DNA of 64,000 nucleotides from an uncultured Alistipes sp. (GTDB taxonomy: Bacteria; Bacteroidota; Bacteroidia; Bacteroidales; Rikenellaceae): the NCBI GenBank assembly GCA_944321955.1, contig CALUNG010000001.1, positions 124,001-188,000 on the forward strand. Direction: 5' to 3'. This document shows positions 55,057 to 60,821 of this stretch, in pieces. Position numbers and translations under genes: made by a program. Numbering within the stretch: the stretch's first letter is position 1; the number at the start of each line of letters is the position of its first letter. The notes under the pieces were generated by a model. The model did not search any database. It was not told where the DNA came from and was given only the letters and a program-made list of their open reading frames with translations.

Positions 55057-56289
55057 TTACCAGTTGAGGATCTTGCGGAAATCGTATGCCTCGGGGTTGG
55101 GAACGTATGCCTTGGCGGCTTCGTAGTCCTCCGGGGTGATGTAGTTCATCAGGTTGTTGATGACCTGCTGGATCTTGTCCGACTCGATGTTTACCAGACG
55201 GGGCGGAATCTTGCCGGTCGTCGGGTCCTGAAGGTCTTTCAGGTAGAGGGGTGATACGTATCCCTCCTGGCTGATGTAGACCATGCAGCCGGTCTTGCCT
55301 TCGCTGAAGAGCTTGTAGACGCCCATACCCAGCTCGGAGCAGTATACGAGGTCGTATGCGATAGGAGTCTGGCAACGAACCTCGTAGCCGATCTCTACCG
55401 GACGCGACTTGACCTTGATGCCGATCTCCTTGAGCTTCTTCTCGAGCAGCTCGTTGAAGATGTGTGCCTTCGATACCTTGCCGAGTTCGGGGTGTCCATG
55501 CTCGTCATAGGTGAAGTGTACGCCCGAGTTCTTGATCTCCTCGTTGCTCAGAGCGTGGAATACGCCCTCCGAGATCATTGCCACACCGTATTCCACACCC
55601 ATGATCTTGCGCTTGATGATCGAGGAAACCACGAGGTTGACGATCTTCTCGACCGTGATTTCGGTCTTGTTGAACATCTCGGGAATAACGATCATCGGGT
55701 AGTGGCATGCGGTACCGATACCGAATGCGAGGTGACCTGCCGAGCGGCCCATGGCTGCAACGACGAACCAGTTTGCCGACGTGCGGGCGTCGTTGTATAC
55801 GGCGCGGCCGATAACCGTACCGCCCTCCTTTGCCGACTGATATCCGAATGTCGGGGTGCCTGCCGGAAGCGGGAGGTCATTGTCGATGGTCTTGGGCACG
55901 TGGATGTTTGCGATGGGGTATTTCTTTGCCTCGAGGAACTTGGCGATGCGGTTTGCCGTCGAAGCGGTGTCGTCGCCGCCGACCGTTACGAGCAGCTTGA
56001 CGTTGTTCTCCTTGAAGAAGGTGAGGTTGAAGTTCTCCTCGAAATCCTTGTCGGTGGGCTTGAAACGGCTCATCGTGAGATAGGAACCTCCCAGATTGAA
56101 GATGTAGTCCGCTTTTGCGAAATCGAGATCCTCGTGCTTGGGCGCGGGATTGAACAGACCCGAATAGCCGTAGTGCAGACCGATTACGCGATATCCTTTT
56201 GCAAGGAATGTCTTGGCGACGCTGGCGACAACCGTATTCATGCCGGGTGCCGGTCCACCGCCGGTGAGAATTGCAATAGCCTCTTTCAT
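55057..56289 (-). CDS. pfp: PPi-dependent 6-phosphofructokinase
   Basis: A 410-residue phosphofructokinase-family enzyme. LTGGGPAPGMN near residue 9 and TVGGDDTAS (residues 102-110) form the donor site. GGDD, with Asp106/107 instead of the ATP-type GGDGS, and Lys133 in PKTIDND mark pyrophosphate as phosphoryl donor. The catalytic Asp lies in TIDND. It interconverts fructose 6-phosphate and fructose 1,6-bisphosphate reversibly. Bacteroidota often carry both PPi- and ATP-type enzymes. Confidence 0.92.
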   Translation of the reverse strand: MKEAIAILTGGGPAPGMNTVVASVAKTFLAKGYRVIGLHYGYSGLFNPAPKHEDLDFAKADYIFNLGGSYLTMSRFKPTDKDFEENFNLTFFKENNVKLLVTVGGDDTASTANRIAKFLEAKKYPIANIHVPKTIDNDLPLPAGTPTFGYQSAKEGGTVIGRAVYNDARTSANWFVVAAMGRSAGHLAFGIGTACHYPMIVIPEMFNKTEITVEKIVNLVVSSIIKRKIMGVEYGVAMISEGVFHALSNEEIKNSGVHFTYDEHGHPELGKVSKAHIFNELLEKKLKEIGIKVKSRPVEIGYEVRCQTPIAYDLVYCSELGMGVYKLFSEGKTGCMVYISQEGYVSPLYLKDLQDPTTGKIPPRLVNIESDKIQQVINNLMNYITPEDYEAAKAYVPNPEAYDFRKILNW

Positions 56290-56462: not shown

Positions 56463-56527
56463 TCCGGTGAAAAAGAGTACCGAAGATGGGCATCCGGTGT
56501 TTGGTTTGCGAAAAAATACTATCTTTG
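56463..56527 (+). promoter_or_regulatory. Promoter region of the steroid-reduction operon
   Basis: The -7 box TATCTTTG is at 56520-56527, with TTTG 16 nt upstream (56500-56503). Two direct copies of TCCGGTG start at 56463 and 56493, exactly 30 bp apart, a possible regulator site. The rest of the ~270-base gap to pfp shows nothing else. Confidence 0.5.
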
Positions 56528-56559: not shown

Positions 56560-57321
56560 ATGAGTCTTTTCGACATTTTCCTGATCGTTATGGCGGTGCT
56601 TGCCCTGGTGGTATTCATCGCGCTCTACTTTTTCGAGGCCGGATACGGCTATCTTTTCAATCCCAGGTTCGGCTTTCCGATACCCAACAGAATAGGGTGG
56701 GTGCTGATGGAGTCTCCGGTATTCATTGCCATGACCATATTGTGGGCCTTGTCGGACCAGACGTGGGCTCCGGCGCCGCTGGCGTTGTTTCTGATATTCC
56801 AGATACACTATTTCCAGCGTTCGTTCATCTTCCCGTTCCTTATTCGCGGCAACTCGAAGATGCCTTTCGGCATTGTGCTCATGGGCATGGTGTTCAATAC
56901 GCTCAATGCCCTGATGCAGGGCGGCTGGATCTTCTACGTGGCTCCGCAGAGCGACTACTATGCCGACTGGTTCTCCAAACCGTATTTCTATGTCGGGGCA
57001 GCGATATTCCTCTTCGGGTTCATCGTGAACCTTCAGTCCGACTACATTATCCGCCATCTGCGCAAGCCGGGCGATACGAAACACTACATCCCGCGCGGCG
57101 GCATGTTCCGCTACGTCTCTTCGGCCAACTATTTCGGCGAGTTGATGGAGTGGGTGGGCTTCGCCATAGCGTCGTGGTCGTGGGCCGGCGCCGTGTTCGC
57201 ATGGTGGACCTTCGCCAACCTCGCACCGCGTGCCAATTCGCTCTACAAACGCTATGAGCAGGAGTTCGGCGAAGAGTTTACATCGCTCAAACGCAAGAGA
57301 ATAATTCCATTCATATATTGA
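56560..57321 (+). CDS. 3-oxo-5-alpha-steroid 4-dehydrogenase (SRD5A-like 5-alpha-reductase)
   Basis: A 253-residue membrane protein with about seven helices, the length of human SRD5A2 (254). NRIGWVLMESPVF near residue 43 aligns with the SRD5A WxxQE segment; Glu51 matches human SRD5A2 Glu57, while Gln56 is Met here. The C-terminal half follows SRD5A closely: GMFRYVSSANYFGELMEW, then GFAIASWSWAGAVFAWWTF, YKRYEQEFGEEF and the ending KRIIPFIY. This domain binds NADPH. It would reduce the delta4 bond of 3-oxo-delta4 steroids to the 5-alpha product. The OYE-type gene follows after 4 bases. The ATG at 56560 was chosen because upstream codons overlap the promoter. Confidence 0.88.
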   Translation: MSLFDIFLIVMAVLALVVFIALYFFEAGYGYLFNPRFGFPIPNRIGWVLMESPVFIAMTILWALSDQTWAPAPLALFLIFQIHYFQRSFIFPFLIRGNSKMPFGIVLMGMVFNTLNALMQGGWIFYVAPQSDYYADWFSKPYFYVGAAIFLFGFIVNLQSDYIIRHLRKPGDTKHYIPRGGMFRYVSSANYFGELMEWVGFAIASWSWAGAVFAWWTFANLAPRANSLYKRYEQEFGEEFTSLKRKRIIPFIY

Positions 57322-57325
57322 TATT

Positions 57326-58567
57326 ATGGAGAAAGACCTCAAGGAGTCGAAACTCTTTACCCCCTATCGCCTGGGACATGTCACGTTGTGTAACCGAACC
57401 ATACGTTCGGCGGCATTCGAATCCATGGGAAAGGATTTCGGTCCCACGCAGCAGCTCAAGGACTACCATGTAAGTGTCGCCCGCGGCGGAATCGGCATGA
57501 CCACGCTGGCCTATGCGGCCGTCAACCGCAGCGGTCTGTCGTTCAACAAACAGCTGTGGCTGCGTCCCGAGATTGTTCCCGGACTGAAGGACATCACAGA
57601 CGCCATACATGCCGAAGGTGCGGCCGCAGGCATACAGATAGGCCATTGCGGCAACATGACGCACTGGTCTACGGCCGGATGTTTCCCCGTCGGAGCATCT
57701 ACGGGCTTCAATCTCTACTCTCCGACCTTCGTGCGCGGCATGCGTCGCAGCGAGTGTGTCGAGTTCGCCAAGGATTTCGGTAAGGCCGTGCTTACGGCAC
57801 ACGAGGCAGGTTTCGACAGCGTCGAGGTTCATGCCGGTCACGGTTACCTCATATCGCAGTTCCTGTCGCCCTATACCAACCACCGCCACGATGAATACGG
57901 CGGCTCGCTTGCCAACCGCATGCGCTTCATGAACATGTGCCTCGAAGAGGTTATGGAGGCTGCCGCGAAGACCGGTACCGCCGTGCTGGTCAAGCATAAC
58001 ATGGAGGATGGCTTCAAGCGCGGCATTCAGATCCCCGAGAGCATCGAGATTGCCAAACAGATCGAAAAGTTAGGAGTCGACGGCATAGTCCTTACTTCGG
58101 GTTTCGTGTCGAAGGCCCCGATGGCCGTGATGCGCGGACGCATACCGACCAAGACCATGAGTTACTATATGCCGTGGTCGTCGTGGCCGCAGAAGATCGT
58201 GGTAAACCTTTTCGGCAACATGATGATCCGCCAGTACGATTTCGAGGAGTGCTACTTCCTCGAGAACGCCAAAAAGTTCCGTGCCGAACTGAAGTGCCCG
58301 CTGGTATATGTCGGCGGCCTCATATCGCGAGCCGGTATCGAACGCGTACTCGATGCCGGTTTCGAGATGGTGCAGATGGCGCGTGCGCTGGTCAACGACC
58401 CGGCCTTCGTGAACAAGCTGCGCGATGGCGACATCAATACCCGTTCGGGCTGCGACCACCGTGACTACTGCATGGCCCGCATGTATTCTGTTGACATGCA
58501 GTGCTGCCACAACTGCAAGGAGCATATTCCCGACCGCCTCTGGAAGGAACTGAACAAAATCAAGTAG
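57326..58567 (+). CDS. OYE-family NADH:flavin oxidoreductase, probable steroid 5-beta-reductase
   Basis: A 413-residue FMN TIM-barrel enzyme. LFTPYRLGHVTLCNRTIRSA binds FMN, IQIGHCGN is the His region, VEVHAGHGYLISQFLSPYTN and HRHDEYGGSLANRMRF are core motifs, and YVGGLISR with MARALVNDPAFV forms the phosphate site. It is a short OYE form without the C-terminal FAD/NAD domains of BaiCD. Instead it ends in a Cys cluster (SGCDHRDYC and QCCHNC). OYE-type enzymes saturate the enone of 3-oxo-delta4 steroids, giving 5-beta products. The neighbours make a steroid substrate likely. Confidence 0.85.
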   Translation: MEKDLKESKLFTPYRLGHVTLCNRTIRSAAFESMGKDFGPTQQLKDYHVSVARGGIGMTTLAYAAVNRSGLSFNKQLWLRPEIVPGLKDITDAIHAEGAAAGIQIGHCGNMTHWSTAGCFPVGASTGFNLYSPTFVRGMRRSECVEFAKDFGKAVLTAHEAGFDSVEVHAGHGYLISQFLSPYTNHRHDEYGGSLANRMRFMNMCLEEVMEAAAKTGTAVLVKHNMEDGFKRGIQIPESIEIAKQIEKLGVDGIVLTSGFVSKAPMAVMRGRIPTKTMSYYMPWSSWPQKIVVNLFGNMMIRQYDFEECYFLENAKKFRAELKCPLVYVGGLISRAGIERVLDAGFEMVQMARALVNDPAFVNKLRDGDINTRSGCDHRDYCMARMYSVDMQCCHNCKEHIPDRLWKELNKIK

Positions 58568-58570
58568 CCT

Positions 58571-59377
58571 ATGATACGAGGAGAGGTCGCTCCGGGAACG
58601 AAAACGGCTCTCGTGACCGGCGCTTCGGCTGGAATCGGACGCTGCTATGCACGACGTCTTGCGTCGCTTGGTTATAATCTGGTGATCGTAAGCCGTCACG
58701 AGGATCGTCTGAACGAACTTGCCGAAGAGATACGCGGACAGCATCCCGTATCGGTTACGGTTCTGGCCATGGACCTTGCCCGCGAGCAGGCGTCGTATGA
58801 ACTGTTCGAGGCCGTCAGGTCGCGTGGTATCGATGTCGACGTGCTGATCAACAACGCCGGCATGTTCTCGTTTCTCGACATACTGAAGACCCCGACGGAG
58901 CGCATATCGCGTCTGCTGTTGCTGCATGACATGACCCTTACGCTCAATTGCCGCCTGTTCGGCGAGGAGATGGCACGTCGCGGCGGCGGGCATATTCTGA
59001 ACATGTCGTCGTTCTCGATATGGATGCCTTTTCCGGGTCTGTCGTTATACAGCGCCAGCAAATCCTACGTAAAGAGTTTTTCGGTGGCCTTCTCCAAGGA
59101 GGTTCAGGAACTCGGCATAAAGTGTACGGCCGTATGTCCGGCCGGTATCGCCACCGACCTTTACGGCTTGCCGGCTGACTGGCAGCGTTTCGGTGTGAGA
59201 ATCGGTGTGCTGATGACGGCGGACCGTTGCGCCAAGAAGGGATTGAGGGCCATGTGGCGCGGACGCCGCAAGTGCGTCCCCGACTGGTGGAACAAGATCT
59301 TCATACCTTTCTGTCTGCTGATACCTTATCCGCTGATGAAACTCATACGGCGCTGGACGGCCCGTTTCCAGAAATAA
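58571..59377 (+). CDS. Short-chain dehydrogenase, probable 3-beta-hydroxysteroid dehydrogenase
   Basis: A 268-residue classical SDR. The cofactor loop TGASAGIG is at residues 16-23, NNAG at 94-97, the catalytic Ser in NMSSFS (146-147), and Tyr160 with Lys164 in YSASK. SRHEDRL after the second strand suggests NADP(H) preference. The C-terminal helix (FIPFCLLIPYPLMKLIRRW) is hydrophobic and may touch the membrane, as in steroid SDRs. It starts 3 bases after the OYE gene. In the bile-acid operons known from Parabacteroides and Odoribacteraceae this slot is a 3-beta-HSDH; that assignment is by context. Confidence 0.85.
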   Translation: MIRGEVAPGTKTALVTGASAGIGRCYARRLASLGYNLVIVSRHEDRLNELAEEIRGQHPVSVTVLAMDLAREQASYELFEAVRSRGIDVDVLINNAGMFSFLDILKTPTERISRLLLLHDMTLTLNCRLFGEEMARRGGGHILNMSSFSIWMPFPGLSLYSASKSYVKSFSVAFSKEVQELGIKCTAVCPAGIATDLYGLPADWQRFGVRIGVLMTADRCAKKGLRAMWRGRRKCVPDWWNKIFIPFCLLIPYPLMKLIRRWTARFQK

Positions 59378-59386
59378 ACGACAATG

Positions 59387-59418
59387 GCAGGCAACCTCGA
59401 TGGTTGCCTGCTTTTTTT
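59387..59418 (+). terminator. Intrinsic terminator of the steroid operon
   Basis: A GCAGGCAACC stem with its complement and a TCGA-type loop, followed by CTTTTTTT. Confidence 0.9.
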
Positions 59419-59630: not shown

Positions 59631-60821
59631 ATGGAGAACAAAATGACATTGAAAAACTGGTTGCCTCTGATCGGGCTGACCTGCGCGGCGTTCATATTCA
59701 ATACCTCGGAGTTCATACCCATAGGTCTGTTGAGCGACATAGCGGCCGATTTTGCCATTACCGAAGCACGTGCCGGAATGATAATATCGGTATATGCATT
59801 TGTGGTCATGCTGATGTCGCTGCCGCTGATGATACTGGTATCCAAGGTAGAACTGCGCAAATTGATGCTGGTCATAGCATCGCTGTTCGTGCTGTTTCAG
59901 ATGCTGTCGGGCATATCGACCGGCTACGGCATGCTCATGTTGTCGAGAATAGGCGTTGCCTGTACACATGCGATATTCTGGTCGATAGTATCGCCATATG
60001 CCGTAAGGCTTGTTCCGGAGAAGTTCCAGCCGCTGGCTTTAGGAATGATTGCTACCGGCACCTCCATCGCCCTTATCTGCGGCATGCCGCTGGGACGTAT
60101 TATCGGACTCTCAATCGGCTGGCGCATGGCGTTCATCTGTATCGGCATCTTCGCGTTCGTGCTGCTCGTCTATATGGCTGCCTTATTGCCTAAGGCTCCG
60201 AGCCGCGGCGGATTTTCATTCCACAAGTTGCCGGTACTGCTCAAGGATCCGCTGCTCGTGGGACTATATGTCCTGTCGTTCGCCATAGCAACATCCTATT
60301 ATACCGGATACAGCTATATTGAACCGTTCCTTAAACAGGTAGCCGGCATGCACGATGGCATGATCACCACTACGATGGTCATTTTCGGCTGCATGGGTAT
60401 TTTGGGCAGCATCTCATTCTCGCGTCTTTACGCCAGAAATCCGTTCAGGTACATGAGTATAGTGTTGGGTGGCGTTACCGTCTGCCTTTTACTGTTGCGG
60501 CCGGCTTCGTATTTCATGGTGGCCGCAATTGCGGTCTGTGCATTGTGGGGCGCTTTCTTTACCGCCTCGAACGTGGTAATGCAGTCGGAGATAATACACA
60601 TGTCGCCGCAAGATGCCACTTCGGTGTCGATGTCGATTTTCTCTGGTATATTCAATCTGGGCATTGCGTGCGGTACCTATGTCGGCGGGTCGGTATGTAC
60701 CCACATGTCGATAGCCGATATCGGTTATGTGGGCGGCGCCATGGCCCTTGTGACATTCATATACTGGCGCCGGTATGTCATGGCCCGGTTCCGCAAGGCT
60801 CTGCAGCTGCTGCACAGGTAG
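59631..60821 (+). CDS. MFS transporter (AraJ/SotB-like efflux family)
   Basis: A 396-residue transporter with twelve membrane helices. FNTSEFIPIGLLSDIAADF in helix 1 matches the signature of DHA1-type sugar or drug efflux proteins (AraJ, SotB, YdhP). IFWSIVSPYAVRLVPEKFQP and GWRMAFICIGIFAF mark the second and third conserved loops. It probably exports a small molecule by proton antiport; the substrate is unknown. The ATG at 59631 was chosen; a TTG five codons upstream is also in frame. The ~210 bases between the upstream terminator and this gene show no gene and no clear promoter box. Confidence 0.88.
   Translation: MENKMTLKNWLPLIGLTCAAFIFNTSEFIPIGLLSDIAADFAITEARAGMIISVYAFVVMLMSLPLMILVSKVELRKLMLVIASLFVLFQMLSGISTGYGMLMLSRIGVACTHAIFWSIVSPYAVRLVPEKFQPLALGMIATGTSIALICGMPLGRIIGLSIGWRMAFICIGIFAFVLLVYMAALLPKAPSRGGFSFHKLPVLLKDPLLVGLYVLSFAIATSYYTGYSYIEPFLKQVAGMHDGMITTTMVIFGCMGILGSISFSRLYARNPFRYMSIVLGGVTVCLLLLRPASYFMVAAIAVCALWGAFFTASNVVMQSEIIHMSPQDATSVSMSIFSGIFNLGIACGTYVGGSVCTHMSIADIGYVGGAMALVTFIYWRRYVMARFRKALQLLHR

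Follow-up and report, generated by a model that had tools for sequence, protein, structure and literature searches.

We analysed a 64,000-nucleotide stretch of genomic DNA from an uncultured Alistipes sp. (contig CALUNG010000001.1, positions 124,001 to 188,000), hereafter the window, at three co-directional genes that encode a 5-alpha-reductase (5AR) of the SRD5A type, a flavoenzyme of the OYE family and a classical short-chain dehydrogenase/reductase (SDR). A sequence-only reading of the window had described these genes as a steroid and bile-acid operon with gaps of 4 and 3 bases, one promoter and one terminator, and this anatomy is borne out by the open reading frames (ORFs), the gaps themselves (57322-57325 and 58568-58570), the promoter pattern and an 11-pair terminator (Table 1). 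A role of the operon in steroid or bile-acid redox reactions is well supported by the families predicted for its products. The third gene, of a type here termed SDR-A, is on sequence grounds a member of a different subfamily from SDR-B, the SDR that follows the 5AR and OYE genes in Bacteroides, Phocaeicola and P. massiliensis.

Table 1. Features of the operon and its neighbours (positions in the window)
Feature	Position	Strand	Remarks
Gene 1, 5AR (SRD5A-type)	56560..57321	+	253 aa from ATG; longest listed ORF begins at GTG 56467
Gene 2, OYE-family flavoenzyme	57326..58567	+	413 aa ORF
Gene 3, SDR-A, classical SDR, presumed hydroxysteroid dehydrogenase	58571..59377	+	268 aa ORF
Bacteroidota-type promoter TTTG-N16-TATCTTTG	56500..56527	+	pattern match; TAnnTTTG box kept in 26 of 30 genus loci
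Intrinsic terminator	59386..59412	+	11-pair stem, then T tract
Phosphofructokinase family gene, upstream neighbour	55057..56289	-	divergent from operon; best NCBIfam match PPi-dependent type, under cut-off
Major facilitator superfamily (MFS) transporter, downstream past terminator	59640..60821	+	NCBIfam PRK03545 'sugar transporter', 411.7 bits, cut-off 401

The promoter site was not listed by a sigma-70 consensus scan and is instead of the Bacteroidota type. Exact matches to TTTGN{14,22}TANNTTTG number 11 in the window, whereas shuffled sequence gave 0.43 on average, so that promoters of this type are readily mapped in it. Of 30 same-genus loci, 26 have a TAnnTTTG box in the 200 bp ahead of the 5AR gene (the misses being L004, L005, L025 and L030); 300 first-order resamplings of the upstream sequences gave 3.0 such loci on average and never more than 9.

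Families of the three gene products

The first gene product is, by its alignments, an SRD5A-type 5-alpha-reductase, scoring 148 bits against PF02544 (E 2.6e-43; Pfam gathering score 22.6) and aligning over its full length with a proteobacterial SRD5A (PDB 7c83, E 7e-52) and with human SRD5A2 (7bw1, E 3.1e-41). Its Glu51 and Tyr84 correspond to the catalytic Glu57 and Tyr91 of the human enzyme (human numbering counted manually, offset 4), and Asn157, Asp161, Arg168 and Asn190 align with NADP-site residues of SRD5A2. Glu51, the conservation of which had already been proposed, is invariant together with Tyr84 and these four residues in all 19 aligned Bacteroidales 5ARs, and the product very probably has 5-alpha-reductase activity.

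For the second gene, a profile search of genome contigs with the OYE alignment yielded 586 confirmed places, of which the best 80, all from named records and ordered by their similarity to a Parabacteroides OYE, and hence no random sample, constitute the named loci referred to throughout; P. merdae, B. dorei and A. onderdonkii are not among them. The product, a short OYE-family enzyme as previously described, matched PF00724 (E 7.4e-50) over residues 9-255 only, is 57-65% identical to 37 aligned named relatives, and shares with them the barrel residues His169, His172 and Tyr174 (38 of 38 sequences). Comparison of its model with known folds placed it closest to 2-naphthoyl-CoA reductase and to further enzymes of the OYE type, 2,4-dienoyl-CoA reductase among them. 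Its 413 aa comprise an FMN barrel but not the C-terminal FAD/NAD(P)H domain of dienoyl-CoA reductase and of BaiCD, the bile-acid 5-beta oxidoreductase of Firmicutes. By analogy with 2,4-dienoyl-CoA reductase, the hallmarks of BaiCD are presumably that domain and a four-Cys Fe-S motif. An assignment to BaiCD was discarded: the two proteins share the OYE-type FMN barrel, in which the best-scoring stretch lies (residues 9-263), but the window OYE scored 172.5 bits with NF041087, where 825 are required, is about 230 aa shorter than this 642-position model, and lacks the FAD domain and one of the four cluster Cys. An assignment to the FadH type was discarded likewise, the score being far under the cut-off and the FAD domain absent.

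The C-terminal motif of the OYE, C376-x-H-x3-C382-x10-C393, recurs as C-x-H-[SVTAG]-x2-C-x10-C in all 80 named relatives, the second Cys of the usual four-Cys cluster motif being replaced by Ser, Val, Thr, Ala or Gly in every one of them; a distant homologue (L052) has CNHCNIC. Residues 376-397 (58451-58516) thus look like a degenerate three-Cys remnant of the four-Cys motif, with additional Cys394 and Cys397. An extra Cys two residues ahead of the first motif Cys, present in 67 of the 80 relatives, is absent from the window OYE. The predicted local distance difference test (pLDDT) score of the model was 50-71 across residues 371-400, and a reading of the model for contact between the three Cys was discarded. 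The OYE gene adjoins a 5AR gene (within 3 kb) in 68 of the 80 named loci, and we consider it likely that its product is a 5-beta-reductase (5BR).

The third gene product matched PF00106 with 139.3 bits (E 1.5e-40; gathering score 26.6) and has the features of a classical SDR that had been attributed to it, including the glycine-rich TGxxxGxG and a Ser147, Tyr160 and Lys164 triad invariant in 20 of 20 sequences. With 24 SDR-A proteins it shares 35-46% identity, with 67 SDR-B proteins 22-31%. In a tree of 28 SDRs, which holds several long branches, outgroups from the window's own genome among them, SDR-A forms a single clade (support 99/99) and SDR-B falls on one side of a branch supported at 91/94. 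By identity, by clade and by the genome searches described below, the gene is not an ortholog of SDR-B, which we infer to be the published 3-beta-hydroxysteroid dehydrogenase (3-beta-HSDH). Consequently, the set of 5AR, 5BR and 3-beta-HSDH previously proposed for the window is supported for its first two members, which are of the Bacteroidales type, and not for the third, which lies outside the SDR-B clade.

Among the best fold matches of the SDR-A model are HSD17B13 and, from Comamonas testosteroni, a dehydrogenase of bulky ketones, a resemblance that suits a lipid-like substrate without being specific. An attempt to read its specificity from solved structures was abandoned, as the top sequence matches are generic SDRs and the fold matches are equally generic, and we found no sequence rule that separates 3-alpha from 3-beta enzymes for SDR-A. 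A hydroxysteroid dehydrogenase (HSDH) is nonetheless a reasonably probable identity; for a specifically 3-alpha enzyme the chances are slightly short of even.

Gene order across the Bacteroidales and in the genus of the window

Among the 80 named loci, the order 5AR-OYE-SDR-B was found in 48, 5AR-OYE-SDR-A-SDR-B in 16, OYE-SDR-A in six, OYE-SDR-B in four, and 5AR-OYE-SDR-A, 5AR-OYE and OYE alone in two each. The contig ends on the 5AR side in two of the four OYE-SDR-B loci (L063, L097) and in one of the two with OYE alone (L062); three loci with distant OYEs (L034-L036) were excluded from the count. Nineteen loci from unnamed members of the order were kept apart, being partly the same records as the 80 (e.g. 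L038/L055, L042/L110, L046/L096, L047/L101); they comprised five four-gene loci, three each of 5AR-OYE, OYE-SDR-A, 5AR-OYE-SDR-B and OYE alone, and two of 5AR-OYE-SDR-A. A relative of gene 2 (E <= 1e-100) occurred in 65 of 393 genomes sampled across the order. Nine more distant OYE relatives (G192, G215, G238, G286, G301, G307, G323, G386 and G111) each carry one stop within the match.

The four-gene loci, found in Barnesiella (L100), Coprobacter (L110), Odoribacter (L101) and others, share with the window the first three genes and their order, but the window operon stops after SDR-A. A four-gene operon of Bacteroidales type also occurs in a record titled as a Pseudoflavonifractor metagenome-assembled genome (L124), a title that may be wrong. 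The six OYE-SDR-A loci, all from Parabacteroides and one labelled P. distasonis, contain orthologs of the window OYE and SDR-A but differ in their lack of a 5AR gene: a profile search found none in any of the six genomes, and it matched all three control genomes, the 5ARs of which, however, sit in the query profile and match by construction. SDR-B was absent from three of the Parabacteroides genomes with SDR-A only (1e-7 to 1e-8, against 1e-46 to 5e-92 for true SDR-B). Conversely, no SDR-A ortholog was found in the genomes of P. massiliensis, Phocaeicola massiliensis and B. fragilis S82, where the best hits had E values of 1e-29 to 1e-35, against 1e-120 to 1e-130 for true SDR-A matches, whose loci are part of the query profile.

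In the genus of the window the order 5AR-OYE-SDR-A was found in all 30 loci fetched. Counting the window's own genome, 32 of 37 genomes of the genus carry the OYE gene, two of the 32 as mere fragments at contig breaks that were not fetched. A search of the window's own genome for SDR-B gave no match above background, the two hits being SDR-A itself (5.7e-6) and a further SDR (2.4e-4), and none was found above background in 81 genus genomes, many of them incomplete (best 5.4e-12, against 1e-46 to 5e-92 for true SDR-B with another SDR-B query). In another genus of the same family (L040, L049) the pair 5AR-OYE has neither SDR-A nor SDR-B alongside. The window's own genome also contains a gene of the choloylglycine hydrolase family (G000:C13:24099-25028, L140; PF02275, E 1.2e-65), which may encode a bile salt hydrolase or a penicillin acylase and makes free bile acids plausible substrates.

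Published activities, proposed pathway and alternatives

A cluster of 5AR, 5BR and 3-beta-HSDH genes in P. merdae and other species was reportedly described by Sato et al. in 2021. A review places the 5AR gene of gut Bacteroidota in clusters with genes for an NADH:flavin oxidoreductase and a predicted 3-beta-HSDH, which act on 3-oxo-delta4-lithocholic acid (3-oxo-delta4-LCA), and records the abolition of allo bile acids upon disruption of the P. merdae 5AR (PMC10382948). The window resembles these clusters in its adjacent, co-directional 5AR and OYE genes with an SDR next to them; its third gene, however, is SDR-A and not the SDR-B of the Bacteroides, Phocaeicola and P. massiliensis loci, with no SDR-B found in the genus. 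In P. merdae and B. dorei, 5BR yields 3-oxo-delta4-LCA, upon which 5AR and then 3-beta-HSDH act (PMC12916643). P. distasonis converts 3-oxo-delta4-LCA to 3-oxoLCA and interconverts 3-oxoLCA, isoLCA and LCA (PMC11647740); among chicken isolates, the Bacteroidetes without a 5AR gene were P. distasonis and two Odoribacter isolates (PMC6069880). Alistipes is listed for 5AR (PMC12789469), has 5AR activity (PMC12692668) and is tied to 3-oxoalloLCA (PMC13233536). An operon of this kind in an Alistipes-like host, as the sequence-only reading had it, is present but not new, having been reported before at the level of 5AR activity. The part that we did not find in the literature searched, mostly reviews, is the SDR-A/SDR-B module pattern; the original 2021 papers may contain this distinction.

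The sequences themselves show the families of the genes, the layout of the operon, its conservation and the pattern of modules, and from these we infer every activity, substrate, direction and stereochemistry of the pathway that follows. We favour, with moderate confidence, a co-transcribed operon for redox reactions of the steroid A/B ring that would act mainly on 3-oxo bile acids and end in 3-oxoallo or allo forms. The 5AR, an integral membrane enzyme using NADPH, would turn 3-oxo-delta4 steroids by reduction into their flat 5-alpha (allo) form, the OYE would interconvert 3-oxo-5-beta and 3-oxo-delta4 steroids, and SDR-A would act at C3, taking hydroxyl to ketone and back, most likely alongside 5BR on the 5-beta side and possibly as a 3-alpha enzyme. 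The branching of one intermediate into two stereochemical series, previously proposed for the pair of reductases, is one option only; reviews describe a 5BR that supplies 3-oxo-delta4 steroid oxidatively to the 5AR, which then reduces it, i.e. an inversion of the A/B ring (PMC12916643, PMC9645264), and the window OYE would probably feed the 5AR in this way. The activities of P. distasonis and the absence of a 5AR gene beside OYE-SDR-A fit the OYE as a 5BR, and SDR-A travels with the OYE without 5AR. The simplest fit would place SDR-A and 5BR on the 5-beta side, where they would admit acids of the LCA or deoxycholic acid (DCA) type, and 5AR and SDR-B on the 5-alpha side. The window operon could accordingly invert the A/B ring but would do so without the usual final step; because SDR-B, which is likely to be the 3-beta-HSDH, is missing from the genus, the pathway would end in 3-oxoallo or allo and not isoallo acids. 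The isoallo and iso products proposed earlier do not follow from the sequence, given that SDR-A forms a separate clade and no SDR-B match was found in the genus.

These products would nevertheless be expected if SDR-A were a functional 3-beta-HSDH non-orthologous to SDR-B, which we regard as unlikely. SDR-A occupies the third position of the operon, and P. distasonis, which is credited with 3-beta-HSDH activity (PMC11647740; table in PMC12692668), has relatives that carry SDR-A without SDR-B; yet the two SDRs occur together in 16 of the 80 named loci, which suggests differing roles, and a review table gives 3-oxoalloLCA, not isoalloLCA, as the product of A. onderdonkii (PMC12692668). It is rather improbable that the operon serves in nature mainly for steroid hormones, or for 3-oxo-delta4 steroids derived from dietary or animal sterols, instead of bile acids. 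The SRD5A homology is indeed to steroid-hormone reductases, and progesterone is a substrate of gut-bacterial 5-beta-reductases of the OYE type, in passages that name no Bacteroidota (PMC12238238), but the published Bacteroidota clusters use 3-oxo-delta4-LCA and the window's own genome has the choloylglycine hydrolase family gene. Finally, a non-steroid role such as enoyl or isoprenoid lipid reduction, with a 5AR that behaves like its relatives among the trans-2-enoyl-CoA reductases, appears very improbable: the 5AR matches the enoyl-CoA reductase 22of (E 1.6e-9) and the OYE fold is nearest naphthoyl- and dienoyl-CoA reductases, but the SRD5A matches (7e-52 and 3e-41) are far stronger, and the P. 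merdae disruption eliminated allo bile acids.

Several observations weigh against the favoured pathway ending in 3-oxoallo or allo acids. The window 5AR has Met50 in place of the Gln that precedes the catalytic Glu in human SRD5A2 (Gln56) and 7c83, and this Met is invariant in 19 of 19 aligned Bacteroidales 5ARs. SDR folds are generic, with 1995 fold matches for SDR-A at E <= 0.001 and a 7-beta-HSDH merely at rank 50. Since P. merdae and B. dorei are absent from the 80 loci, the equation of SDR-B with their 3-beta-HSDH is indirect, and many genomes of the genus are incomplete, 35 of 81 combining a completeness of 90% or more with a contamination of 5% or less. The table that gives 3-oxoalloLCA for A. 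onderdonkii gives it also for B. thetaiotaomicron and P. goldsteinii (PMC12692668), so this end point may not reflect the absence of SDR-B. The 5AR gene was missing from two Odoribacter isolates (PMC6069880), and the 3-alpha and 3-beta activities credited to P. distasonis, with SDR-A-bearing relatives that lack SDR-B, mean that SDR-A could be a 3-beta enzyme.

Beyond the window, we tentatively suggest a Bacteroidales operon in two halves, of which lineages would keep different subsets. An entry half (SDR-A as 3-alpha-HSDH and an oxidative 5BR) would open LCA- and DCA-type acids to 3-oxo-delta4 forms, and an exit half (5AR and SDR-B as 3-beta-HSDH) would close them as isoallo acids. P. distasonis-like bacteria would have the entry half only, Bacteroides 5AR, 5BR and SDR-B, and Barnesiella and Odoribacter all four genes; the genus of the window would have dropped SDR-B and would pass 3-oxoallo or allo acids to SDR-B-bearing neighbours. 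Bile acids of the allo and isoallo forms have effects on T cells and on gram-positive pathogens of the gut (PMC12692668, PMC10382948). If this scheme is true, operon content would predict the end bile-acid isomer of each gut Bacteroidales species. Isomers are usually assigned to species from the presence of 5AR; if the SDR-A/SDR-B split sets the C3 outcome, gene count would separate 3-oxoallo or allo producers from isoallo producers, and Alistipes-like bacteria would be scored among the former. SDR-A is thereby defined as a specific uncharacterised enzyme family for assay.

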